Positions 33,364 to 46,026 of a DNA stretch of 64,000 bases are shown here, in pieces. Position 1 is the stretch's first letter. Each line of letters begins with the position of its first letter. The DNA lies in contig MEDW01000002.1 in the NCBI GenBank assembly GCA_001724215.1, positions 1 through 64,000 of the forward strand, given 5' to 3'. A program made the translations under genes and the position numbers. The notes under the pieces were generated by a model, which was not told the DNA's origin, made no database searches, and saw nothing but the letters and a program-made list of their open reading frames with translations. This DNA comes from Erythrobacter sp. SCN 62-14. Lineage in GTDB: Bacteria > Pseudomonadota > Alphaproteobacteria > Sphingomonadales > Sphingomonadaceae.

Positions 33364-33529
33364 GCGTCTAATTTGTGGGGCCCGGGCGTTTAATCAAGCT
33401 GCCGAACATGCCTGATGCCCAATCACATGCGGTTCCATTGTGTCGACGAGCAAGGGCAGCAACAAAGTCGGCACAGTTTACGGCCAGATGTAAACCGCCG
33501 ATGCGCCTTATCGCCAAGTGCTTGAAGGA

Positions 33530-33541
33530 TGGTAGCGGAGG
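33530..33541. repeat. Candidate distal att site
   Basis: TGGTAGCGGAGG, exact copy of the tRNA 3' end at 45950-45961. Confidence 0.7.
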
Positions 33542-33654
33542 TCCGATGCGAACGGTGTGCCCCACATGGGCATATTCGGCACGGTCACGGCTAGCAGTGG
33601 GAGGGTAATCCCCTCACGCCTCAAGCTTACCCAAGCCGCATTTCCATCAAATAG

Positions 33655-33687
33655 AAAAAAGCCCCACTGTTAGCGCAGCGGGGCTTT
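33655..33687 (-). terminator. Intrinsic terminator on the minus strand inside the rep leader
   Basis: Minus strand AAAGCCCCGCTG-CGCTAA-CAGTGGGGCTTT plus T6; 12-bp stem whose single non-Watson-Crick pair is G-U only on the minus strand. Confidence 0.75.
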
Positions 33688-33769
33688 CACGAGCGCCGGA
33701 CTGACGCTGATGAGCACAGCACGAATAAGCCGGGCGCTTTTTCAATGCAAATTGAAAGGAGCCAGAACT

Positions 33770-34474
33770 ATGGCCATCAAGATACCCTCGAAGGTTAAGG
33801 CGAAAGCCCAACCCGCTAACCCGACCGTCGCGGACCTCCTGCCCGACCTGAACTTGCCAGACGAGGTTGGCTCTGCCCCCTATACGGGCTCGGCGCAGCA
33901 GCTCGTGAGCATCACACAATGGCTGGCGCTACAGATCGGGAAAGAGACCATATACAACCTCAAACAGCCGACACCTTCCGCGCTGGTCAAGAAGTGCAGG
34001 AAGGTGTTCGCCGACTGGTGGGACTATCTCACTGATCGGGTCGAAGTGGCTGACGAGCTCAAAAAGCTACTGTCCTATCAGTTCCGGGATGCGTTCGAGC
34101 AGGCCACTCATAAAGGGCTCACCGGTCACGATTTGCCCAAGGCTAAGGACGGGTTCCAGCACAATGCTCTCAAAGGGCTCAGGCAAGCGACTGGTCATGG
34201 CGACGCCGCTTTGCTGCTCTACCGCATCCGCTACTGGTGGCCGAAGGCGTCTGTAATCCACTTTGGCAAGAAGTGGATTGCAAAGACACATCAACAATGG
34301 GCGGATGAGCTAGGCATGCCGAAGCGCACTTTTCGCACGGCCTACGACAAGCTGCTGGATTTGGGATTGGTCGAAGCGATCACCGCAGAATTCAATGGCC
34401 ATTCGATGCTGCACTTGCGCCCGACGGCAGATGCCGTTGCCCTCTTTCAGTTTTCCGATAGCAATCCGGGGTGA
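33770..34474 (+). CDS. Putative replication initiator / winged-helix DNA-binding protein
   Basis: LLYRIRYWWPK...KWIAKTHQQWADELGMPKRTFRTAYDKLLDLGLVEAI resembles wHTH replication proteins; strong AAAGGAG RBS; iteron-like array starts at its stop codon. Confidence 0.6.
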   Translation: MAIKIPSKVKAKAQPANPTVADLLPDLNLPDEVGSAPYTGSAQQLVSITQWLALQIGKETIYNLKQPTPSALVKKCRKVFADWWDYLTDRVEVADELKKLLSYQFRDAFEQATHKGLTGHDLPKAKDGFQHNALKGLRQATGHGDAALLLYRIRYWWPKASVIHFGKKWIAKTHQQWADELGMPKRTFRTAYDKLLDLGLVEAITAEFNGHSMLHLRPTADAVALFQFSDSNPG

Positions 34475-34575
34475 CGAAATTCGTCAGGCAGGGATGACGA
34501 ATTGCGTCATGCCACATGACGGAAAGCGTCATAGCTAATGACGCCGTTCGGCAACCCCCCTGACGCAGTTCGGCG
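34472..34575. repeat. Five-unit iteron-like array TGACG-N5-CGnCA, 22-23 bp periodicity
   Basis: Units start at 34472, 34495, 34517, 34539, 34561: TGACGAAATTCGTCA, TGACGAATTGCGTCA, TGACGGAAAGCGTCA, TGACGCCGTTCGGCA, TGACGCAGTTCGGCG. Confidence 0.85.
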
Positions 34576-34584
34576 ACCTTAATT

Positions 34585-34606
34585 AAGAGACGAAACAAGA
34601 GACGAA
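34585..34606. repeat. Tandem 12-mer AAGAGACGAAAC AAGAGACGAACG, relatively A-rich
   Basis: AAGAGACGAA at 34585 and 34597, just after TTAATTAA and the iteron-like array. Confidence 0.6.
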
Positions 34607-34833
34607 CGAAGATACGGAAAAAGCCTTAGCGTGCCGTCGCTCCGCTCCGAACGCGTGGGTCATCCGAACAGAGTTCGGAAAGGAAGTAGCGGGATACATG
34701 CTTACGCATGTCTCCCTTCCGCCCCCACCCCCTGTAGTCCCCCTCCCCATCATAGCTGCAATTAATTGCAATCAATGAACCGTTAGGATTGCGACGATAT
34801 TGGTCTGGCCTCTCGTGGGAAGGAAGATCGACG

Positions 34834-35424
34834 ATGACGATGCCCCAACACAATCCCGACGTTGATCGCCTCAAAAAGCAGGCGCTGGCCTTGGCGGTGA
34901 AGCCAACCAAAAGCTTCCATGCCTTCGCCCGCGCTTTGTGGGCTGCACACAGTCAGGATCGGGGCTTCATGCATGAGGTCGAGAAGGTTGCGGGCATCAA
35001 GCGCCGCTCCCTGTTCTATCTGCTGAACGTGGGCGAGTTTCTGGACGAGTATGATGTGTCGGAGGAGCAGGCCGAACGTATCGGCTGGACCAAGCTCCAG
35101 ATCATTGCCCGATACGCGGGGAACCAGCCGAGCCGGATCAGCCAGCGGGCCATGAAGGGGAAGCTGGGTCTGGCGGCTCGGACCCCTGCACACGCGCTCC
35201 CAGCCGCTCTAGAAGCCGGAAACAAGCACCCATGTGACCCACTCCACTCGATCCTGCTCCGCATCTCGGCCAGCCAGTATGCTGACGTTGAGGCCGCTCT
35301 CATTGCTTGCGGAGCCAAACGGTCAGGCCGAGGCTTGGTTGGGAAAGAGGCTGCCCTCGTGAACATGGCAACGAGCCACCTGAACTGGCAGGGACACAAA
35401 CAAGGGACAAAACCAGCAGATTGA
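34834..35424 (+). CDS. Uncharacterised protein of the element
   Basis: MTMPQHNPDVDRLKKQALALAVKP...; helical, HTH-like AGIKRRSLFYLLNVGEFLDEY; start chosen near an upstream GGAAGG. Confidence 0.6.
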   Translation: MTMPQHNPDVDRLKKQALALAVKPTKSFHAFARALWAAHSQDRGFMHEVEKVAGIKRRSLFYLLNVGEFLDEYDVSEEQAERIGWTKLQIIARYAGNQPSRISQRAMKGKLGLAARTPAHALPAALEAGNKHPCDPLHSILLRISASQYADVEAALIACGAKRSGRGLVGKEAALVNMATSHLNWQGHKQGTKPAD

Positions 35425-35626
35425 GTGTCGCACGGACACGAATAGGGACAAATGGCTCTACGCCGGTCCGGGTTAGATTTCCATGGAGGATCGCCACCTT
35501 AGGACGTCCCACTGCCTTGGCTGCAACGTGGGGATCAAACCCCTCTGCCAATTTGACCCCAGGCTCAGATTTACTGGGCTTTCCCGCCGGATATGAAAGA
35601 ACCAAGCAGACAGGAGTAATTCTCAC

Positions 35627-36613
35627 ATGCTTGACCTTACCCAGCCGGATCAGACTGCAATTAATTGCACAGTGTCATCAGCAATCTCCGAGGCAATTCA
35701 TCACCCGAGCCAATTTGGAGCCTCACAGGACGCAATCCGCCACTTCCTAACTCACTCCCTATCGGCCAACTCCAAACGCGCCTACGCAGCCGATATCGAG
35801 CATTTCAGGGCATCCGGGCGGGAAATCCCTTCCACGCCGGAAACTGTCGCAGGCTACCTCGCAGAAATCGCTGAGACCCACGCTGTCGCGACCATCCAAC
35901 GCAGGCTCGTCGCCATTGCCAAAGCCCATCGCGCTTTCGGTCACGCCGATCCCTGCCAGTCCGAGATCGTCAAAGCGGTGATGCGGGGTATCCGGCGCAC
36001 CAACGGCACAGCGCAGCGGGAAGCGCAAGCATTGCAGCGCGACGACCTCTTTGCAGTCCTCTCCAAGATGGCCGACCGTCCGATTGACCTCCGCGACCGA
36101 GCATTGCTGCTGATCGGCTTTGCCGGTGCATTCCGTCGTTCCGAACTTGTAGGGCTCAATGTCGATGATGTGCAGCACGTCAGGCAAGGCATTGTCCTGC
36201 ACCTGCGCCGATCCAAAACTGACCAGACCGGTCAAGGTCGAAAGATTGCCATACCTCATGGCCGCACCCGCTGGTGCCCGGTGAAGCACCTCACCGACTG
36301 GCTTGGCCATGCAGGCATCACCCAAGGCCCCTTGTTCCGAAGCATCAACCGGCATGGCCGGATCACACCAGATCGGCTGTCAGGCGATGCGGTTTCGACG
36401 ATCATCAAGAAGCGGCTGTCCAATACCGGTTTCGATCCCGCGAGTTTCTCGGGCCACTCGCTCCGCGCCGGGTTCGCAACCAGCGCCGCCATGGCCGGAG
36501 CATCATCCTGGAAAATCCGCCAGCAGACCGGCCACGCTTCCGACGCCATGCTGACCCGCTACATTCGAGACGGTGACATGTTCACCGATAATGCGGCAGC
36601 GGCGGTGCTCTAA
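35627..36613 (+). CDS. Tyrosine recombinase / phage-type integrase
   Basis: AFRRSELV, SGHSLRAGFAT, QTGHASDAMLTRYIRDG (R..HxxR..H..Y). Confidence 0.92.
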   Translation: MLDLTQPDQTAINCTVSSAISEAIHHPSQFGASQDAIRHFLTHSLSANSKRAYAADIEHFRASGREIPSTPETVAGYLAEIAETHAVATIQRRLVAIAKAHRAFGHADPCQSEIVKAVMRGIRRTNGTAQREAQALQRDDLFAVLSKMADRPIDLRDRALLLIGFAGAFRRSELVGLNVDDVQHVRQGIVLHLRRSKTDQTGQGRKIAIPHGRTRWCPVKHLTDWLGHAGITQGPLFRSINRHGRITPDRLSGDAVSTIIKKRLSNTGFDPASFSGHSLRAGFATSAAMAGASSWKIRQQTGHASDAMLTRYIRDGDMFTDNAAAAVL

Positions 36614-36625
36614 CCGTCCGCCGGA

Positions 36626-36961
36626 TCAAACTTTCGGTCGAAGCGCGGCTTCGATCACACCGCTCAGCCAACGCAACTCGCTGTCACTGAGGCTCCCCAG
36701 CCTACCGACGATTTCCGTAAGCGTTGCGCGCTGAAGCTGGCCGTCGGGCAAGTTCGGGGTGAATAGCTCCGCAGGATCAATTTCTAGCGCCTCTGCGATC
36801 TGCGTGATCACACCGAAACGGGCTCCGCTGTTTCCCCCTTCGATCTTGGAGATCATGTCAGTGCTGATGCTTGCTCGTTCGGCCAGAGCCTCCTGCGTTA
36901 GGCCCGCACGCACCCGGTGCGTTTTGACCAGTCGTCCAAACCTCGTCCGCAAATCGACCAT
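36626..36961 (-). CDS. XRE-family HTH transcriptional regulator
   Basis: VKTHRVRAGLTQEALAERASISTDMISKIEGGNSGARFGVITQIAEALEID. Confidence 0.9.
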   Translation of the reverse strand: MVDLRTRFGRLVKTHRVRAGLTQEALAERASISTDMISKIEGGNSGARFGVITQIAEALEIDPAELFTPNLPDGQLQRATLTEIVGRLGSLSDSELRWLSGVIEAALRPKV

Positions 36962-37105
36962 GGTGCCTCCCAGCAAGTGGGTAGCCGGGGACCAGTCTCA
37001 TCTTGAGGGAAGTGTCTTCGAAAATCAGGCATATCAGTAATTAAAAGGCAACTTTCTCGAATTAGCTTACGAGACGGAGCATCATCTCAGTGGATTGAGG
37101 ACAGC

Positions 37106-37696
37106 ATGGCCGATCAGGCATCAGGCATACGCGATAGGATCAGAGCGCGGGAAGCCTCCAGAACCGTCAGTCAGTATGATCGAAGGACCAGCGAAGAGCC
37201 GAAAGCAACGACGGGCGGTTCATCGTTCTTCCGCAAGCTGGCCAAATGGACGGCAATAACGATTGGCGTGCTGATCGCTCTCGTGGCCGCAATCGGCATC
37301 ATAGCAGAGACCACGGCGACGCCGGAAGACAAGGCGCGATGGGCGGCTGAACGCGCTGAGCGGGAAAAAGAAAGAGCCATTCGGGAGGCAGCAGAGCTGG
37401 CAGCCCGACAACGGGCAGAGGCCGAGGAAGCTGCGCGCGAAGCTCAGTTCAAATGCCTCCGCTCGCTTGACGGCTCCATGGGAAGTTTCGCGATAGAGGT
37501 GAAATACGAGCTGCGGGACCCGGACAGCTTTGAACACATTCAGTCGTTTGCAACGGCGGTCGATGCTGATGGCACTCAGCGCGTTCGCATGAAGTTCCGA
37601 GCGCGCAATGGCTTTGGCGGAATGAATGTCGAAATGGCGGAGGCTGTCGTCGATAACTCGGATTGCGAAGTGCGGTCATGGCGTTTTATCCGATGA
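37106..37696 (+). CDS. Uncharacterised single-TM coiled-coil protein
   Basis: KLAKWTAITIGVLIALVAAIGIIAE TM segment then RAEREKERAIREAAELAARQRAEAEEAAREAQ. Confidence 0.7.
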   Translation: MADQASGIRDRIRAREASRTVSQYDRRTSEEPKATTGGSSFFRKLAKWTAITIGVLIALVAAIGIIAETTATPEDKARWAAERAEREKERAIREAAELAARQRAEAEEAAREAQFKCLRSLDGSMGSFAIEVKYELRDPDSFEHIQSFATAVDADGTQRVRMKFRARNGFGGMNVEMAEAVVDNSDCEVRSWRFIR

Positions 37697-37869
37697 CCTG
37701 AACCATCCCACTGCCCCAATGCTCAATGACAGCTCTTGGGGCGCGGCTTAGTCACACGACGCACATTGCCACTTCTAGGACATGCACCATCGGCTTGTCG
37801 CGGCAAGCATCGAAAGGTGTTGGCATTAATCTTCTGTCGCTATAATCCCTTTGATGGACAGAGGACGGG

Positions 37870-38997
37870 ATGGCAGACGGCTCAAAGATTTTCAGTTTAC
37901 ATTATCAGGGTAACCGCTTCAGAAATGCCCGGTTACCCGTCGATGTCCTGTCGGATTTTCCGGCCTTCCGCGATCTGCTCGTGTCTTACGCCAAAGATGA
38001 ATGGCTTCGCCGTCATTCAGACCGCCAACGAGTGCCAAAGGGTTTCGACAAGAGTTTGACATTCGATCTTGTCGACATCGAAGAGGGCAGCGCAATTCCT
38101 AAATTGGAATGGAACCGTTCGAGCGCCCAAGTAAACTTGCCGGGGTTCGCTGACGAAATTGAAGAAGTCGTTGAGGCAGCTTACAGCGACATAATCTCCT
38201 TAATCGAAGGTCAAAGTGGTCGCGTTTCTGCGTTGAGTTCAGAAAAGGTTCGAGCACTTAATCGGTTTGGCGCCGGATTGCGTCAAAACGAAAGGATTGA
38301 GCTATCCGATAGGCAGAGCACGAAGGTCGTGTTTCTTGACGCAGTCAGACGAAAGCAGCTGATCACTGGCGCACGAGAAACCTATCAGACACGTTTTGAA
38401 GACATCGGCGAACTGATTGGCACACTGTCGAAGAGTGAATACGACGGTGGAATTACAATCCGCACAGTCCAATACGGCGATATCTTTGTTCCGATAGAAG
38501 CCACGCAAGTTCGGGAAGAATTTGACGGAAACTTAGGGAACGAGGTGCAATTTGAGCTTCTCGTTGAATTGGACAGCCAAGACCAATTTAGACGAGTTGC
38601 CGATGTCTTCGATATCGGGATCGTAGACGATGAGCTTAGCGCAGCTTTGACGAAATGCAGGGTCAGATTGGACGAACTTCGCACCTTAGAAGCTGGTTGG
38701 CATGATGGAAATGGATCCAAGGTGACTGAAAGTGCGCTTTCATCAGCTCAAAACTTTTTAACCAAGCGACCCAGCTACTGTGGAGCCTTTAGAATTTTTC
38801 CAACCGAAAGCGGTGGGGTTCTATTCGACTTCGAACAAGGGGGTTGGGATTATTCAGTCGAGGTCAGTCCACATGGCGGTGTGGAGATGTATGGTATTGA
38901 GATTGACGGCTCAGGGGAGATCGATCCCGAGAACTTCAGTGCTGTGGACGACAGCTTCCTCTCGTTCTTTGATGCGCGGATGAGCGCGAATGGGTGA
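37870..38997 (+). CDS. Uncharacterised protein, first gene of a two-gene cassette
   Basis: 375 aa; LPVDVLSDFPAFRDLL...RVPKGFDKSLTFDLVDIEEGSAIPKLEW and EAGWHDGNGSKVTESALSSAQNFL blocks; overlaps the next ORF by 8 nt. Confidence 0.75.
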   Translation: MADGSKIFSLHYQGNRFRNARLPVDVLSDFPAFRDLLVSYAKDEWLRRHSDRQRVPKGFDKSLTFDLVDIEEGSAIPKLEWNRSSAQVNLPGFADEIEEVVEAAYSDIISLIEGQSGRVSALSSEKVRALNRFGAGLRQNERIELSDRQSTKVVFLDAVRRKQLITGARETYQTRFEDIGELIGTLSKSEYDGGITIRTVQYGDIFVPIEATQVREEFDGNLGNEVQFELLVELDSQDQFRRVADVFDIGIVDDELSAALTKCRVRLDELRTLEAGWHDGNGSKVTESALSSAQNFLTKRPSYCGAFRIFPTESGGVLFDFEQGGWDYSVEVSPHGGVEMYGIEIDGSGEIDPENFSAVDDSFLSFFDARMSANG

Positions 38998-39388
38998 GCG
39001 TCTCACAGACCCAGACGAGGTGCTTTTCCGGCAGATACACCCGAGTTGTATCCAAAATGGCGAGCCTGCTAGCGACCGGTTCAAGCCACAGCCAAACGAT
39101 CAAGGCTTCATGTCAGTGGATCGAAGTTCCCTTACAACTGCGCAGGCATCTTTTGAAACATACTTAAAGGGCGGTCGACAATCTGCGGCTGTCTACGGCG
39201 TCTCAGTTGGCGAATTTCAAGACGAGAATATTGCCTGCCAAAGCGACCCCATTGACGGCACTGATGGAAGGGAGCCTAATCCCGCCCATGCGTTGACCGA
39301 CTACACTGTTCACGATGAACGGAAATGGAAAAACATTTCGAAACGGCTAACACACAAGGCAAAGGCCCGTGGTCGCCTGCACCCTTGA
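38990..39388 (+). CDS. Uncharacterised small protein, second gene of a two-gene cassette
   Basis: MGERLTDPDEVLFRQIHPSCIQNGEPASDRFKPQPNDQGFMSVDRSSLTTAQASF; overlapping start. Confidence 0.7.
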   Translation: MGERLTDPDEVLFRQIHPSCIQNGEPASDRFKPQPNDQGFMSVDRSSLTTAQASFETYLKGGRQSAAVYGVSVGEFQDENIACQSDPIDGTDGREPNPAHALTDYTVHDERKWKNISKRLTHKAKARGRLHP

Positions 39389-39440
39389 TGTCGAAGCCAG
39401 CTCCTGTGATTTTTCTTCGGAAAAGTTCCTGCCCAAACCC

Positions 39441-39461
39441 CTGATAACATCCTCTTATCAG
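39441..39461. terminator. Hairpin between convergent genes
   Basis: CTGATAA-CATCCTC-TTATCAG perfect 7-bp arms. Confidence 0.4.
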
Positions 39462-39478
39462 AGCCTAGGAATGGCCGA

Positions 39479-42118
39479 TCAGGCCACCTTTCCGAGCAGT
39501 TGGGCGCGCACATCTTTGCCGTCCACCTGCTTTTCGACCATCAAAAACAGCCCCTTCCCCGCGCTGGCCTTTTCCCAAAGGGCTCCAATCGCTCGCTTCT
39601 CATCGGTGTCAGCAGCGTCGGTCAGGTGCGCCCCCTTGTATTCGACGACCAGTATCGAGCCGCTGGTGAGTTCGGCCACGAAATCGGGATAGAACCGGCC
39701 TGACGCCGTTGGCAGCCAGAACGCGTTGGGATGCCGAGGAACATTCCTGATCCAGTGTTTCACCTGCGGGAGGCTGTCGATCATCTTGGCGCAGTGCAGT
39801 TCCTCACCGTCCTCTGCACCGTCGAACGCGGGAACCTGATCCCAGCCGGTGAAATGCTTCGAGAACCGGTAGGAGCCGCGATAGGTTCGGACGCCTGCAA
39901 ACATGTCGTCAGCAAACAGGAAGCCGTTATCAAGTGAGATTTCCGGCTTCGCTTCCGGCGCAAACAGCGACCTCTGATAGACACCCTCCCGCTCTTTCGA
40001 CCGGATTTGCGCGATGCGTTCCTTCACCTTCCGGGCCAACGGATATTTGCACTGCATCAATGCCGACAAAGGGATGTTGCGCGGGCCTGTCAGGTAGCCA
40101 ACAAGCTCGGTCAGCCATCGCACCAGCTCCCCCTGCCCGATGAATTTGTCTCGCACCTGCCGGTCGAGGAACAGGACTAGGGTTTGCTCGCTCCAGCCCT
40201 CCACGGGGATGTCGAGCAGAAGCTGGGCGCTTTGATCTGCGTGCTTCACGAACAGCTTTTGCTGGTCGATGTCGATCTCGAAGGTATCCGCCGTCGCCTG
40301 AATGGAAAAGTCCTTGGCCTCCAGCTTCGGGGAGTGATCGGCCAGAGACCAATCGTGGTATTCCATGAGGAGATCAGTATCGGCCAGCTCAAGCTCGCCC
40401 TGCACCCACGCCATCAGGGCCGGAACGACGAACCTCTCGCCCCTCTCTGCTGGCGAAGCTGCTTCACGATGCTCCGCCTCATAGCTGGCGACTTCTTTCT
40501 CGAACCCGCCTGCCTCAGCTTCCGGCAATGCAGCGACGAGCTTTGCCTTCTCGGCCGGGCTGAGAAACCCGGTGATCTTGACGACCGCCTTCCCATCAAC
40601 TCCTGTCGTGACGCGCACCTTCGATGGCGCTGCCGCTTCCAATCCCCTCAACGCATTCGGGTCCACGTCGATGGTGGTTGTCATACTGGGCTTAGGACGG
40701 CGAACCTGCCCGAAAAGCCCCTCATTCAGATCGATCTGCTCCGCCTGAATGTTGTCCTGTGCCTCGCTCTCCTCAAAGCCCATCGACACCAGCCGGTCTT
40801 TCAAGGCGTTTGCGGCATCAGAGAAGGACTTGGAGGTCAGATTGGCATAGGCCCGGTTCAGCGACGGGATCGACCGCTCTTTGGCGTAGGGCATCCGCAG
40901 AACACGGCCCAGAAGCTGCTCCGCATCCGTCGCGCTGTGAATGTTGGCGACCGAGCAGAAAACATAGGCGAAGGAGCAATCCCAGCCCTCTTTCAATGCT
41001 TCGACCGTGATGATGAAATCAATCGGGCAGTCGGGGTCGAAAAGGTTGATCCCATCCAGTTCACGCTGATCGCCAGTGGCAACGGCAATGCGGTGCTCTT
41101 CGATCCCCTCAGCGTCGATCAAATGCTGCTTGAGGACGGCGACGTTGACCTCCTCATCCTTGTTCTGGGCCTGAAACAGCACAAGCGGACGGAGATAGTC
41201 GCGATCTCGGCGCGCATCCTCAGCAAGTTCCGCCCGCTTGGAAATCGCCGCCGTCACCGCAGACTGCCATGTCTGATGCTCCGACAGCATGACCGGCAGC
41301 TTGATCATCTGCGCGTCTTTCAGCTCTTGGGCCGAGACAGAGTGCAGAATGTTGGAATTGGTGCGCGGAGTGGCCGTGAACTCGATTATTGCCGTCGGGT
41401 TGACCCGGCTTTGCATCTCACGGGAAAGCCCGGTCACGGCCTTGTGCGCCTCATCGACAATCATGAGCGGCTGATGCAGGTGCATCAGATTGGCGAACGA
41501 GAACTTGATGGTGGCCGCGCCCGGGCCATCCTCGATCAGCTCCATTCCTGGCATCTTGTCTGGAACGCCAGTGAAATGCGGCTCCAGCATCTCGTGGTGA
41601 GCATAGACCTTGCGGCCCTCGGTATCCTTCACCCTCAGGGTCTGGATGGTGGCAACCACCACACAGCAATTCGACCGCAGATCATGCGGCAGAAGCTGGG
41701 TGAAATCGCCAATATCGAACACGCGGACGCGACCGGCGAAGGCGTCGTCCAATGCAGCGCGATAAGGGTGGCGGGGATTTTTCAGCGCATCCACAGTCTG
41801 CTTGCGGATCGTGGTGGACGGCACCAGCCACAGCACGAGCGGGAAATCGCGCTCGATCCACGTTTCCTTGGCAATGTTGACCGCATGGGCTGCCAGCACG
41901 GTCTTGCCGCCGCCAGTTGGCAGTCGGAGGCAGACATACGGCGTCTCCTCCTGCCCGTTGAGCGCCTTGTAGCTGCCTGCGAACCCTTTCAGGCGCTTCG
42001 CCATCTCCGGCTCGGCAACGATGCTTTCGTAAGCCGTGCGCGGACCTTCGACACGAGCCTTCTCGAAAAACCGCCGCAGCGTGCCGAGGGTCTGGCGCTG
42101 ATAGGTCTTGAGTTCCAT
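39479..42118 (-). CDS. res: Type III restriction endonuclease subunit R (SF2 helicase plus nuclease)
   Basis: LRLPTGGGKTVLAAH, IVDEAHKA, YPDFVAELTSGSILVVEYKG (PD-(D/E)XK-like C-terminus). Confidence 0.9.
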   Translation of the reverse strand: MELKTYQRQTLGTLRRFFEKARVEGPRTAYESIVAEPEMAKRLKGFAGSYKALNGQEETPYVCLRLPTGGGKTVLAAHAVNIAKETWIERDFPLVLWLVPSTTIRKQTVDALKNPRHPYRAALDDAFAGRVRVFDIGDFTQLLPHDLRSNCCVVVATIQTLRVKDTEGRKVYAHHEMLEPHFTGVPDKMPGMELIEDGPGAATIKFSFANLMHLHQPLMIVDEAHKAVTGLSREMQSRVNPTAIIEFTATPRTNSNILHSVSAQELKDAQMIKLPVMLSEHQTWQSAVTAAISKRAELAEDARRDRDYLRPLVLFQAQNKDEEVNVAVLKQHLIDAEGIEEHRIAVATGDQRELDGINLFDPDCPIDFIITVEALKEGWDCSFAYVFCSVANIHSATDAEQLLGRVLRMPYAKERSIPSLNRAYANLTSKSFSDAANALKDRLVSMGFEESEAQDNIQAEQIDLNEGLFGQVRRPKPSMTTTIDVDPNALRGLEAAAPSKVRVTTGVDGKAVVKITGFLSPAEKAKLVAALPEAEAGGFEKEVASYEAEHREAASPAERGERFVVPALMAWVQGELELADTDLLMEYHDWSLADHSPKLEAKDFSIQATADTFEIDIDQQKLFVKHADQSAQLLLDIPVEGWSEQTLVLFLDRQVRDKFIGQGELVRWLTELVGYLTGPRNIPLSALMQCKYPLARKVKERIAQIRSKEREGVYQRSLFAPEAKPEISLDNGFLFADDMFAGVRTYRGSYRFSKHFTGWDQVPAFDGAEDGEELHCAKMIDSLPQVKHWIRNVPRHPNAFWLPTASGRFYPDFVAELTSGSILVVEYKGAHLTDAADTDEKRAIGALWEKASAGKGLFLMVEKQVDGKDVRAQLLGKVA

Positions 42119-43647
42119 TATGCCCGCGCCTTCACGTCATAGGGGGTCTGCTTGAAGGTGATTTGCTCGCTTTCCAGCGTCGCGTCAGACAGCGCGGAGC
42201 GTTCGCCATAGACGGTCATGGGACCAGCAAAGGCATCCGGCAAAGCAGCACGGATCACGGCAAGAGTTTTGCGGGTCAGCACATTGCCCCCGCCGACCGA
42301 CTTGTCTCCGAGAATGCCGTTGTAGAGCAGCGCATAAGCTCGTCCGTCCTGCACGCCGAGGACTGGCGACAACGGGTCGGGCTCCGCCCAAGGCTGGCGG
42401 GTTTCTGAGAACCACACGTGCGCGGCGAGCACAGGGAATTTGATGTCGGGGCGTATTTGACCTGTTTCGTCGAAAACCGGAGCGCCGAGCCGAAAGTATC
42501 GAAAGCCCCCTCCGCCGTGCCAACTGACCGCACCTGAGATGCCGCCTTGCTCGCCGTCCACGACCTTTTTGAGACGCGGCTGACAATGGGTCGCCGCATG
42601 GTTTCCCATTTCGATGCCGATGTATCGACGGCCCATTTTGTGAGCGACGGCTGCCGTCGTGCCGGAGCCGAGGAAGCTGTCGAGCACCAGATCGCCGGGA
42701 TTGGTGGAGATATGGAGAATGCGCTGGATAAGACGTTCGGGCTTCGGAGTGTCAAAAACGTCCCCAAGTTCGAGCTTAAGAACCTCGCGCTTGGCCTCTT
42801 GGTTGTGCCCGACTTCATTATGAAGCCATACTGTTTGCGGCGTAAGACCGCCCATCTCCGAGAGATATTTTTTCAACCTCGGCATACGATTACCCTCAGG
42901 CCCAAACCAAAGCCTGCCTTCCCGTTGCAGGACTTCAATGTTTTCCTTTGGTCGGCTCCAGCTACGCCCTCTAGCTGGATAAACTTCTTTTCCAGACGGA
43001 GTTACCAACGCCCAATAATCCCGATCCCGATGCTCGGCTCGTGTTAAATCCGTCGATGCCCACGGCCCGCGAGGATCATTGTCAGGATTGGTGTATCTCT
43101 GATCCATTGCTTCGGTCCGAGGCAAAGCAATCGGAGTCCAATTTTCTTTGTTTTTGGCCGAACACAGAACGTGGTCGTGACTATCGCTGATCCATCGTGC
43201 ATCATTCTGCGGCGAGAATTTTTTCTGCCAAATGATATTCGCGACGAAGTTCCGCCGTCCGAAAACCTCGTCCATGATGACCTTGAGGTAGTGTCCCTCA
43301 TTATCGTCGATACTCACCCAGATACTGCCGTCTTCAGCGAGCAATTCGCGTAGCAATTCCAGCCGAGGCCAGATCATCGCCAGCCATTTGCTGTGCTCAA
43401 GATTGTCATCGTAATGCTCAAAGGCCGAGCGGGTGTTGTAGGGAGGGTCAATGTAGATGCATTTCACCTGTCCCGCGTAGAAGGGGAGCAAGGCCTTCAG
43501 AGCATCAAGGTTGTCGCCCTGAATAAGCATGTTACCGGTGTCGCGGTCGCCGTAACTGAGATCAGGGACTTCCTCCAAAAGCCGGTATGGCACCCGCGCA
43601 GCAGCCCGAACGTCATCCTCTCTCGTCAACCATCGCAAAGTCGGCAT
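42118..43647 (-). CDS. mod: Type III DNA methyltransferase subunit M (N6-adenine)
   Basis: IYIDPPYNT catalytic motif, DSFLGSGTTAAVAHKMGRRYIGIE SAM motif; TAATG overlap with res. Confidence 0.92.
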   Translation of the reverse strand: MPTLRWLTREDDVRAAARVPYRLLEEVPDLSYGDRDTGNMLIQGDNLDALKALLPFYAGQVKCIYIDPPYNTRSAFEHYDDNLEHSKWLAMIWPRLELLRELLAEDGSIWVSIDDNEGHYLKVIMDEVFGRRNFVANIIWQKKFSPQNDARWISDSHDHVLCSAKNKENWTPIALPRTEAMDQRYTNPDNDPRGPWASTDLTRAEHRDRDYWALVTPSGKEVYPARGRSWSRPKENIEVLQREGRLWFGPEGNRMPRLKKYLSEMGGLTPQTVWLHNEVGHNQEAKREVLKLELGDVFDTPKPERLIQRILHISTNPGDLVLDSFLGSGTTAAVAHKMGRRYIGIEMGNHAATHCQPRLKKVVDGEQGGISGAVSWHGGGGFRYFRLGAPVFDETGQIRPDIKFPVLAAHVWFSETRQPWAEPDPLSPVLGVQDGRAYALLYNGILGDKSVGGGNVLTRKTLAVIRAALPDAFAGPMTVYGERSALSDATLESEQITFKQTPYDVKARA

Positions 43648-43754
43648 TAGCTGCTAGTCGCCCTCGTCCCTAAACGCTTGATTGCCCTCCCTATCCGATT
43701 TGCCGCAGCGATGGAAACTACATCGCCGACATTGGCGGGGAACAGCGCGATGAT

Positions 43755-43778
43755 CTTTGTGCAGTTAATTGCACAAAG
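43755..43778. promoter_or_regulatory. Inverted repeat CTTTGTGCA-GTTAAT-TGCACAAAG upstream of mod
   Basis: 9-bp perfect arms; contains TGCAGTTAATTGCA, one mismatch from a motif found twice more in the element. Confidence 0.5.
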
Positions 43779-43793
43779 ACGCGGAACGCACGG

Positions 43794-44096
43794 TCAGCCT
43801 TGACCACTGGTTCGAATTTCAAGGGCACGCACCTGCGCCCTGAGACCTTCCAGCTCCTGACCGAGCACTTTGACCTGCTGATAGAGTTCTGGCGTCACGA
43901 AATCCGGCACGGTTTGGTCAGCTTCAATGCTCTGCTGAAGCCGGGCGACGATCTCGCTGTTCAGCGAGCGCCCATTTTGCCGCGCTGACGCATCCAGAGC
44001 CTCCTTGAGATCAGGAGGCATCCGCAAACCATAAGGGGTGATGTTGGCCATGGGTGCACCAGCCGATGGGGCTTTGCGGGGTGGAGTTCCAGTCAT
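43794..44096 (-). CDS. Arc-type ribbon-helix-helix DNA-binding protein
   Basis: YGLRMPPDLKEALDASARQNGRSLNSEIVARLQQSIE; the track ORF extends spuriously to 44639; start 44096 or 44051. Confidence 0.85.
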   Translation of the reverse strand: MTGTPPRKAPSAGAPMANITPYGLRMPPDLKEALDASARQNGRSLNSEIVARLQQSIEADQTVPDFVTPELYQQVKVLGQELEGLRAQVRALEIRTSGQG

Positions 44097-44107
44097 GGCT
44101 ACACAGA

Positions 44108-44158
44108 AGCTCATTTTAGCTCTTGCCTCAATACATACAGTGTAGCTACATTGTAGCT
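44108..44158. promoter_or_regulatory. Candidate RHH operator with phased AGCT cores
   Basis: AGCT at 44108, 44118, 44144, 44155 (10/26/11 spacing); palindrome TGTAGCTACA at 44141-44150; lies between divergent RHH genes. Confidence 0.55.
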
Positions 44159-44178
44159 CTTTTGATGGAGTGAAAGCT

Positions 44179-44340
44179 ATGCAGACGCAACCCGTGCACC
44201 CCACGAGCCTGAGATTGCCGACCGATCTGAAGGCGAAGCTGAAAGATCGTGCGATCATCAACCGGCGCTCGCTGACCGGCGAAATCATCGCGACCTTGGA
44301 AAAGGCAATGGCAGTCGATCCGGAGGAGGCCGCACGATGA
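44179..44340 (+). CDS. Small Arc-type ribbon-helix-helix protein (53 aa), absent from ORF track
   Basis: MQTQPVHPTSLRLPTDLKAKLKDRAIINRRSLTGEIIATLEKAMAVDPEEAAR; ATGA overlap with the downstream recombinase. Confidence 0.85.
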   Translation: MQTQPVHPTSLRLPTDLKAKLKDRAIINRRSLTGEIIATLEKAMAVDPEEAAR

Positions 44341-46007
44341 GCCAGCCGCCCCGCGCCGCGATTTACGCGAGGTATTCGACCGACATGCAGAATGAGCGGT
44401 CGATTGAGGATCAAATAGACCTTTGCCGTGCCTACGCGGCTCGCCAAGGGCTGATCGTCGTTGACGTTTTCGAAGATAGAGCCGTCTCGGGTGCGTCCAT
44501 GCACAATCGACCGGGCATTAAATCCCTGCTCGCGAAGGCTGCAACTGGACGCTTCAACGTCGTCCTCGCTGAAAGCATGAGCCGGATTGCGCGCGATCAG
44601 GAAGATCGCGCAGCCATCAGAAAGCGTCTCCAGTTCCAAGGCATCACATTAATGACGCCGAGCGATGGGGTGGTGACGCCTCTGACAGACGGCATCCGCG
44701 CCGTGATTGACAGCCAGTATATCGAAGACCTCAAGGGCATGATCCGCCGAGGAATGACTGGTCTGGCGCGGCAGGGAAAGTCAGCCGGAGGCAGAGCTTA
44801 TGGCTATCGGGCCAATCCCTTGGCCAAAGGAGAGTTGCTCGTGGCCGAAGGCGAGGCCGAAATCGTGCAGCATGTATTCCGCTCGTTTGTGAAAGGAGCA
44901 TCCCCCCAAGCGATTTGCCACGAGTTAAACGCGAGACGTATTGTGCCGCCACGAGGAGGCGGGCACTGGCACCCCTCCGCCCTGCTCGGGATGGAGGCCC
45001 GAGGTAGCGGCATTCTTCGCAATCCCATCTACGTGGGACGTCCTGTGTGGAACAAAAACAGGATGCTGAAAGACCCTGACACCGGGAAGCGCGTTTCACG
45101 GCCCAATGCTGCAGAAGAATGGCTGCATCAGGACGCTCCTCATCTTCGTCTCGTTTCGGACGAACTATTCGAGAAGGCTCAGTCCCTGCTACAAGCTCGC
45201 TCACATCGTAAGCGTGACGAAAACTTCGGCGTCCACAAGCGCCCGCAATATCTTTTGTCTGGCTTGCTCAAGTGTGCCGCCTGCGGATCAGGCATGGTCC
45301 GGTGCGGTAAAGATAAGTCAGGCAAGACCCGGCTGAAATGCTCACTTCACCACGGCAGCAAGAGTTGCCCAAACCCAAAGAGCTTTTACGCCGAAGACGT
45401 GGAAGCCTTGGTCATCGACAGCCTCACCAAGGAACTTGCCAGCCCTTCACAAATCTACGGCTACGCCAAGACCTTTATGGAGGAACGCCAAGCTAAGGCA
45501 GCTCATGAAAACCAGCGACGCAAAGCGATCGAGAGCCGCTTGAAGGCCATCGAAAAGGAGAGCACCAAGCTGGTGGACCTCATGATCGGTGGCGTTGGCG
45601 ATGTAGAGACGCTCGGGGCCAAGTCTAAAGAACTAGGTCGGGAACGAGATGACTTGCGAGTTGAGCTGGCGAGCCTTCCCGAAGCGAGCAACGTGTCCGT
45701 GCATCCAGCCGCCATAAAGCACTTCGCCAGCAAGTTGGCGGGCTCTCGTGCCAAACTCGAATATGCCCTCCACATGCTTGATGACATGGGCGAGCTTCAA
45801 CGCATCGTCCGAGGCATCATCAAGTCCGTGACACTCTCCAAGGACCACGACGGAGTGACCTGCATCTTTGTCGAGAGCTATTTGGAGCCGTTCCTTACGG
45901 AACCGGGAACCCACGAACAAGGCTTTGGCCAATCGGGGGGTTATACCGTTGGTAGCGGAGGAGGGACTCGAACCCCCGACACGCGGATTATGATTCCGCT
46001 GCTCTAA
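44337..46007 (+). CDS. Large serine recombinase (resolvase plus recombinase plus zinc-ribbon domains)
   Basis: AAIYARYSTDMQNERSIEDQI, ESMSRIARDQED, GLLKCAACGSGM...CSLHHGSKSC; stop lies in the tRNA gene. Confidence 0.95.
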   Translation: MSQPPRAAIYARYSTDMQNERSIEDQIDLCRAYAARQGLIVVDVFEDRAVSGASMHNRPGIKSLLAKAATGRFNVVLAESMSRIARDQEDRAAIRKRLQFQGITLMTPSDGVVTPLTDGIRAVIDSQYIEDLKGMIRRGMTGLARQGKSAGGRAYGYRANPLAKGELLVAEGEAEIVQHVFRSFVKGASPQAICHELNARRIVPPRGGGHWHPSALLGMEARGSGILRNPIYVGRPVWNKNRMLKDPDTGKRVSRPNAAEEWLHQDAPHLRLVSDELFEKAQSLLQARSHRKRDENFGVHKRPQYLLSGLLKCAACGSGMVRCGKDKSGKTRLKCSLHHGSKSCPNPKSFYAEDVEALVIDSLTKELASPSQIYGYAKTFMEERQAKAAHENQRRKAIESRLKAIEKESTKLVDLMIGGVGDVETLGAKSKELGRERDDLRVELASLPEASNVSVHPAAIKHFASKLAGSRAKLEYALHMLDDMGELQRIVRGIIKSVTLSKDHDGVTCIFVESYLEPFLTEPGTHEQGFGQSGGYTVGSGGGTRTPDTRIMIPLL

Positions 46008-46026
46008 CCGGCTGAGCTACTCCGCC
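45950..46026 (-). tRNA. tRNA with CAT anticodon, probably elongator tRNA-Met
   Basis: GGCGGAGTAGCTCAGCCGGTTAGAGCAGCGGAATCATAATCCGCGTGTCGGGGGTTCGAGTCCCTCCTCCGCTACCA; cloverleaf arms and encoded CCA. Confidence 0.92.

Follow-up and report, generated by a model that had tools for sequence, protein, structure and literature searches.

A candidate initiator-origin pair with phased inverted-repeat iterons in a 12.4-kb element integrated at a tRNA-Met gene of Erythrobacter sp. SCN 62-14

The window analyzed here (the whole stretch of 64,000 nucleotides from Erythrobacter sp. SCN 62-14) contains a gene at 33770-34474 that, judging from its sequence and surroundings, probably codes for a replication initiator, with the DNA from 34472 to ca. 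34720 as its origin, i.e., an initiator-origin pair. The pair is located within a discrete element of 12.4 kb (about 33530-45961), bounded on one side by a 12-bp repeat and on the other by the 3' end of a tRNA-Met gene. The repeat array, the ends of the element, the conserved pairing of gene and array and the gene context are direct observations.

The array (34472-34575, plus strand) came out of a pattern scan as five inverted-repeat iterons of the form TGACG-N5-CGKCR. A previous sequence-only reading of this DNA had described units starting at 34472, 34495, 34517, 34539 and 34561, with the first one overlapping the stop codon of the preceding gene. All five were recovered exactly on re-scanning, the spacing of 23/22/22/22 bp is the same in the window and in Tsuneonella flava MS1-4, and the TGA of the first unit does double as the stop codon of 33770-34474, which is the only overlap between iterons and gene, none of them lying inside it. 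The repeats are phased, yet each unit is in itself an inverted repeat. In units 1-3, which terminate in CGTCA and are nearly palindromic, 14, 12, and 10 of the 15 positions are self-complementary; units 4-5, which end in CGGCA and CGGCG, form weaker inverted repeats (8/15). Among 60 copies of the window generated by a first-order Markov model, the longest chain at 21-23 bp spacing was one unit, and on both strands of the window the pattern is matched 10 times, against a mean of 1.16 in dinucleotide shuffles. A genome-wide search located the paired-unit pattern only at this locus in its own genome, and among 401 genomes of the family T. flava was the only other carrier. Its array (L002, 8697-8800) has five units with identical spacing, the first likewise overlapping a stop codon, and the switch from CGTCA (units 1-3) to CGGCR (units 4-5) is common to both. 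The two arrays agree at 47/50 positions of the arms, 14/25 of the centers and 7/29 of the spacers (arms vs. spacers, p 1e-10).

Just behind the array there is an AT-rich stretch (34579-34620, plus strand), a candidate unwinding element made of TTAATTAA (34579-34586) and the 12-mers AAGAGACGAAAC, AAGAGACGAACG and AAGATACGGAAA (34585-34620); the 12-mers noticed previously are present, although as three tandem copies and not two. The AT content of 34577-34624 is 60%, and 67% in the T. flava counterpart, where the layout with AT-rich 12-mers downstream of the array is kept. Farther on (34663-34716, plus strand) two conserved dyads, TCCGAAC-AGA-GTTCGGA and GGGATACATGC-TTAC-GCATGTCTCCC, gave ssDNA folding z values of -3.3 and -4.0, and one dyad is altered on both arms in T. 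flava (CCTGAAC/GTTCAGG). Allowing up to 2 mismatches, neither 34400-34850 nor T. flava yielded a DnaA box (TTATCCACA), and no second iteron set was found beside the AT-rich stretch within 2 arm mismatches. The Rfam search of the window and T. flava returned only tRNA and the serC leader. That the dyads mimic an oriT was considered in terms of plasmid similarity and set aside, as neither they nor the noncoding region matched plasmids.

The gene (33770-34474, plus strand) codes for 234 aa with a predicted C-terminal winged helix (residues ~142-218; PHROG and AF2). Pfam and NCBIfam had no family for this protein at E 1e-3 (NCBIfam none even at E 1), including the known plasmid Rep families (Rep_3, RepA_C, TrfA, RepA_N and others), but initiator PHROGs did match the winged helix, with DnaD-like loaders, O-like initiators and other initiators found over residues 142-206 (E 9e-5 to 2e-3). 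The phage matches include an O-like initiator. The PHROG matches cover the DNA-binding domain only (O-like, E 2e-4 for the window protein and 5e-6 for that of T. flava), and the T. flava homologue matches the initiator PHROGs more strongly (best E 3e-7). The AF2 model of residues 130-234 has a winged-helix topology (pLDDT 71), and its fold neighbors in the PDB are mostly generic MarR/ArsR-type winged helices (E >0.01), with weaker matches to phage replication proteins and to the plasmid initiator structures 4pt7 and 5kbj (RepA_N-type initiator structures do appear). The full-length model was too uncertain (pLDDT 58) and its fold matches uninformative. Based on these profiles, the protein is a predicted winged-helix DNA binder with replication initiators as sequence relatives; the modeled fold is by itself no proof of an initiator role. 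Its single close relative is the T. flava protein (70% identical). Protein or array was detected in only two of the sampled genomes, the source genome and T. flava (401 family genomes searched), and no relatives were found in viral contigs.

The left end of the element is the attachment core TGGTAGCGGAGG (33530-33541, minus strand), equal to the last 12 nt of the target site, a tRNA-Met(CAT) gene (45950-46026, minus strand) whose own core is at 45950-45961. In G805 and G816, two related genomes, DNA matching 33459-33541 directly abuts the tRNA-Met, and since 33459-33529 lies directly against the tRNA there, 33542-45949 is an insertion. Both genomes have a further tRNA fragment ~9-11 kb beyond, so that the displaced flank may itself represent another element's end. 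In relatives (L045, L055, L058, L051) the tRNA-Met 3' end is an integration hotspot, marked by partial copies of the tRNA, of which G808 has several in succession.

Within the element, the rep-like gene is preceded by a leader (33652-33769, plus strand) consisting of a GC-rich hairpin, GAGCGCCGG, GACGCTGA and a ribosome-binding site. Behind the candidate origin comes a second core gene, ORF2 (34834-35424, plus strand; 196 aa), that has no Pfam family but has relatives in the elements of T. flava, G063, G184 and G226. It is followed by int1 (35627-36613, plus strand; Phage_integrase, E 1.4e-15), a tyrosine recombinase common to the element family, and an XRE-type regulator (36626-36961, minus strand; HTH_31, E 9e-14) with homologues in the elements of G054, G184 and G226. 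The cargo comprises a candidate defense pair, PDC-M32A/PDC-M32B (37870-39388, plus strand; PADLOC E 4e-151 and 1e-31), and a type III restriction-modification system, res and mod (39479-43647, minus strand; PADLOC REase_III and MTase_III). Two small ribbon-helix-helix genes follow (43794-44051, minus strand, and 44179-44340, plus strand; Arc family match); both are found in G054, and RHH2 is 54% identical to a T. flava gene beside the far-end integrase. At the right end a large serine recombinase (44337-46007, plus strand; Resolvase, Recombinase and Zn_ribbon_recom), the frame of which ends inside the tRNA-Met, has a 65% identical copy at the same tRNA-Met position in G054 and is probably the integrase of the 12.4-kb element. 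No relaxase, conjugation, primase or packaging genes were recognized in Pfam scans of the main ORFs of the element.

The int1 profile gave matches in eight further genomes at E <1e-60, seven of them scoring strongly and one weakly. The seven strongly scoring elements (T. flava, G054, G063, G184, G226, G007, and G073) were examined, and all of them bear the palindrome described below. They are located in or near tRNA-Thr, -Glu, -Met and -Pro genes, with no tRNA seen in the stretch around that of G007. Ends were identified for three. The T. flava element (14.5 kb) is flanked by tRNA-Thr and a 45-bp tRNA repeat (95.6% identical); it carries type I restriction-modification genes and a reverse transcriptase gene, and a tyrosine integrase of its own is located at the far end. 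That of G054 ends in a 13-bp copy of tRNA-Met just before the gene in the rep position, and that of G184 in a 17-bp tRNA-Glu repeat. The recombinase beside the attachment site is of the serine type in the window and G054, of the tyrosine type in T. flava and of the DUF6538 type in G063 and, by sequence resemblance, in G184, whereas int1 remains ~70% identical among elements in or near these different tRNAs. Because int1 is common to all of them while the recombinase at the attachment site changes, we disfavored int1 as the integrase, and it probably does not play this role in the window element either. Its best plasmid relatives (~37-48% identical) are plasmid-borne site-specific recombinases. 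A DUF488 gene is located directly upstream of int1 in four elements (L060 10585-11130, L073, L074, and L075) and is absent there in the window, and a small reverse transcriptase gene near int1 in the T. flava element (L060 12711-13493) gave weak retron/defense-type matches.

The gene in the rep position, which we have referred to as the slot, varies. The winged-helix/array type is found in the window and T. flava, a 267-268-aa protein followed by a long inverted repeat in G063 and G184, a protein related to one on the 9.9-kb plasmid pAciIRM in G007 and G054, and an HNH-like protein in G226; no gene was identified at this position in G073. The pAciIRM protein matches Rep_trans at E 7e-6, a weak match, below the curated cut-off of Pfam and with this protein as single intermediate. 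Searched directly, the G007 and G054 slot proteins gave Rep_trans at E 0.21, below significance, and the assignment was dropped except for the link via pAciIRM. The leader can be aligned in five elements, two of them with a different slot gene (the 267-268-aa type) and one with the HNH-like gene (G226), and the noncoding region after the slot gene of G063 and G184 differs from that of the window. Slot genes thus appear to be swapped together with the noncoding DNA that follows them, as expected of an initiator-origin slot. The leader hairpin, common to elements with different slot genes, is terminator-like and might act as an attenuator. Targeted searches of the open-access literature returned no description of this element family, which with its interchangeable parts seems to be undescribed, even though the integrating-replicating kind is already known from a few other islands.

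The sequence-only reading had taken the locus for a plasmid-type origin in an integrated element, i.e., an integrating-replicating hybrid. Its core, namely an initiator gene, phased iterons and DNA that opens easily within an integrated element, finds support in the predicted winged helix, the conserved array and the element ends, and also in the relatives, in which the corresponding gene differs and in two cases is replication-related. The hybrid character is well supported too, as far as sequence can tell, and is of a kind already known (SGI1, PICI, pPDL2). The term plasmid-type fits less well, with neither a Pfam/NCBIfam Rep family nor a DnaA box and with repeats inverted as in ori-lambda; the inverted repeats and the missing DnaA box make this origin resemble that of phage lambda more than that of a classical iteron plasmid. 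In lambda a phased array of inverted-repeat iterons lies next to an AT-rich region and is served by the winged-helix O initiator (PMC5043065). The window has the same kind of iterons adjoining an AT-rich region, and a winged helix with O-like PHROG matches over the DNA-binding domain. However, its five 15-bp units are 3' of the gene and not inside it, the winged helix is at the C-terminus, no partner resembling lambda P was recognized and the carrier is an integrative element.

The genomic setting has closer parallels. The genomic island SGI1 has a rep gene followed by iterons and AT-rich direct repeats and replicates after excision (PMC7433901), and in the window repeats and AT-rich 12-mers are likewise directly 3' of the rep-like gene; unlike the window element, SGI1 inserts at trmE and is mobilized by IncC plasmids, its Rep has a RepA_C domain, its repeats are direct and 17 bp long, and it has a DnaA box. 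PICIs, integrated islands too, likewise have their origin immediately downstream of the initiator gene (PMC6092414); they possess pri-rep genes and two iteron sets flanking the AT-rich region, compared to one set and no recognized primase in the window element. The PLE satellites of Vibrio cholerae possess their own initiator, semi-palindromic iterons and a large serine recombinase (PMC7145576), all with a counterpart in the window element, but their RepA is of the RepA_N type with an N-terminal winged helix, and no sequence relation to the window protein was detected. Among sphingomonads, pPDL2 of Sphingobium fuliginis combines a replication module, a CopG-type regulator and an integrase targeting a tRNA 3' end (PMC3516476), a similar assembly, although its RepA is of the Rep_3 type, it has a DnaA box, plasmid iterons and an oriT, and it is maintained as a plasmid. 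Taken together, the inverted units, the lack of a DnaA box and the origin just 3' of the gene make a lambda-like mechanism in an SGI1-like setting the most likely.

With its own predicted initiator gene and a five-repeat array, the element probably replicates on leaving the chromosome. The serine recombinase would excise the 12.4 kb, and dimers of the initiator would occupy all five inverted repeats from the same side of the helix, as lambda O does. A spacing of 22 bp corresponds to about two helical turns. Binding would open the neighboring 12-mers of the AT-rich stretch, the helicase would be loaded by host or helper proteins, and the circle would replicate transiently and then re-integrate. 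It is unlikely that the winged-helix protein is instead a transcription regulator and the array a multi-operator region controlling ORF2 or its own gene. By fold the winged helix is closest to MarR/ArsR regulators, the units are palindromic and the array is upstream of ORF2; however, the sequence-family matches are initiators, the array is situated 3' of the gene, with ~260 bp separating it from ORF2, ORF2 is retained without the array in elements that have a different slot gene, and five phased sites plus conserved AT-rich 12-mers and dyads over ~250 bp exceed what an operator needs. Improbable as well is a former origin of which this copy would be a relic, no longer excising or replicating: the single chromosomal copy would agree with it, but the open reading frames, the array and both attachment cores are intact, and the arms have been conserved at 70% protein identity. 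In partition systems, winged-helix or ribbon-helix-helix proteins do bind regular arrays of palindromic sites, and AspA was weakly present in the fold search of the full-length model, yet that the protein binds the array as a centromere-like partition site, and not as an origin, is very hard to credit with no ParA/ParM-type ATPase among the scanned ORFs of the element and the AT-rich 12-mers left unexplained.

The candidate replication module ends at a 14-bp palindrome, TGCAATTAATTGCA (34757-34770), with a second copy at 35656-35669, within the first codons of the annotated int1, and a third, TGCAGTTAATTGCA, upstream of mod (43760-43773). The sequence TGCARTTAAYTGCA is thus present three times in the window, where none would be expected. 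Across nine genomes the palindrome TGCARTTAATTGCA was found 22 times inside elements; the three copies outside them all belong to G054. Copies close the slot, precede cargo genes and, in all seven related elements, coincide with the start of int1. Comparing 231 pairs of sites, which are not independent of one another, only the upstream flank was shared in 10, only the downstream flank in 5 and both in 3, and T. flava and G063 share their hsdM modules from the palindrome onward and not before. This suggests that modules have been exchanged at the palindrome. It may instead be a plain operator, but the one-sided similarity (15 vs. 3 two-sided of 231) fits exchange junctions better. In addition, a dyad with the shape of a tyrosine-recombinase core site, CTGATAA-N7-TTATCAG (39441-39461, plus strand), possibly serving as such, is present once each, in the same form or a near variant, in the T. 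flava, G054, G184, G226 and G007 elements. Elsewhere it is mostly ~40 bp before a palindrome, and in the window the type III restriction-modification module lies between them. One tentative reading is that int1 and the palindrome, perhaps with this dyad, form a site-specific module-exchange system in which whole origins, core genes and defense cargo would be swapped as cassettes, int1 doing the exchanging and separate, site-matched recombinases the integrating. This possible exchange is the most novel part of our findings; the palindrome sequence was not found in the open-access papers searched.

If the initiator-origin pair works as proposed, sphingomonads would harbor a family of small defense-carrying elements that can exist in a chromosomal and in a replicating circular form and whose initiator-origin modules are interchangeable. 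They would provide a direct system to ask how islands without recognizable transfer genes amplify and spread, and a route to how replication, integration and cargo modules mix. As a minor observation, GANTC, the CcrM methylation site, occurs once in the window element (33530-45961) against 66 expected, once against 73 in that of T. flava (L060/L061) and 0 times over ~16 kb in G063. The elements of G054 (17/54) and G184 (34/74) are not so strongly depleted, and since the avoidance does not follow the slot type (G184) we did not take it as proof of replication. The flanks have 38 vs. 195 and 70 vs. 192 expected sites.
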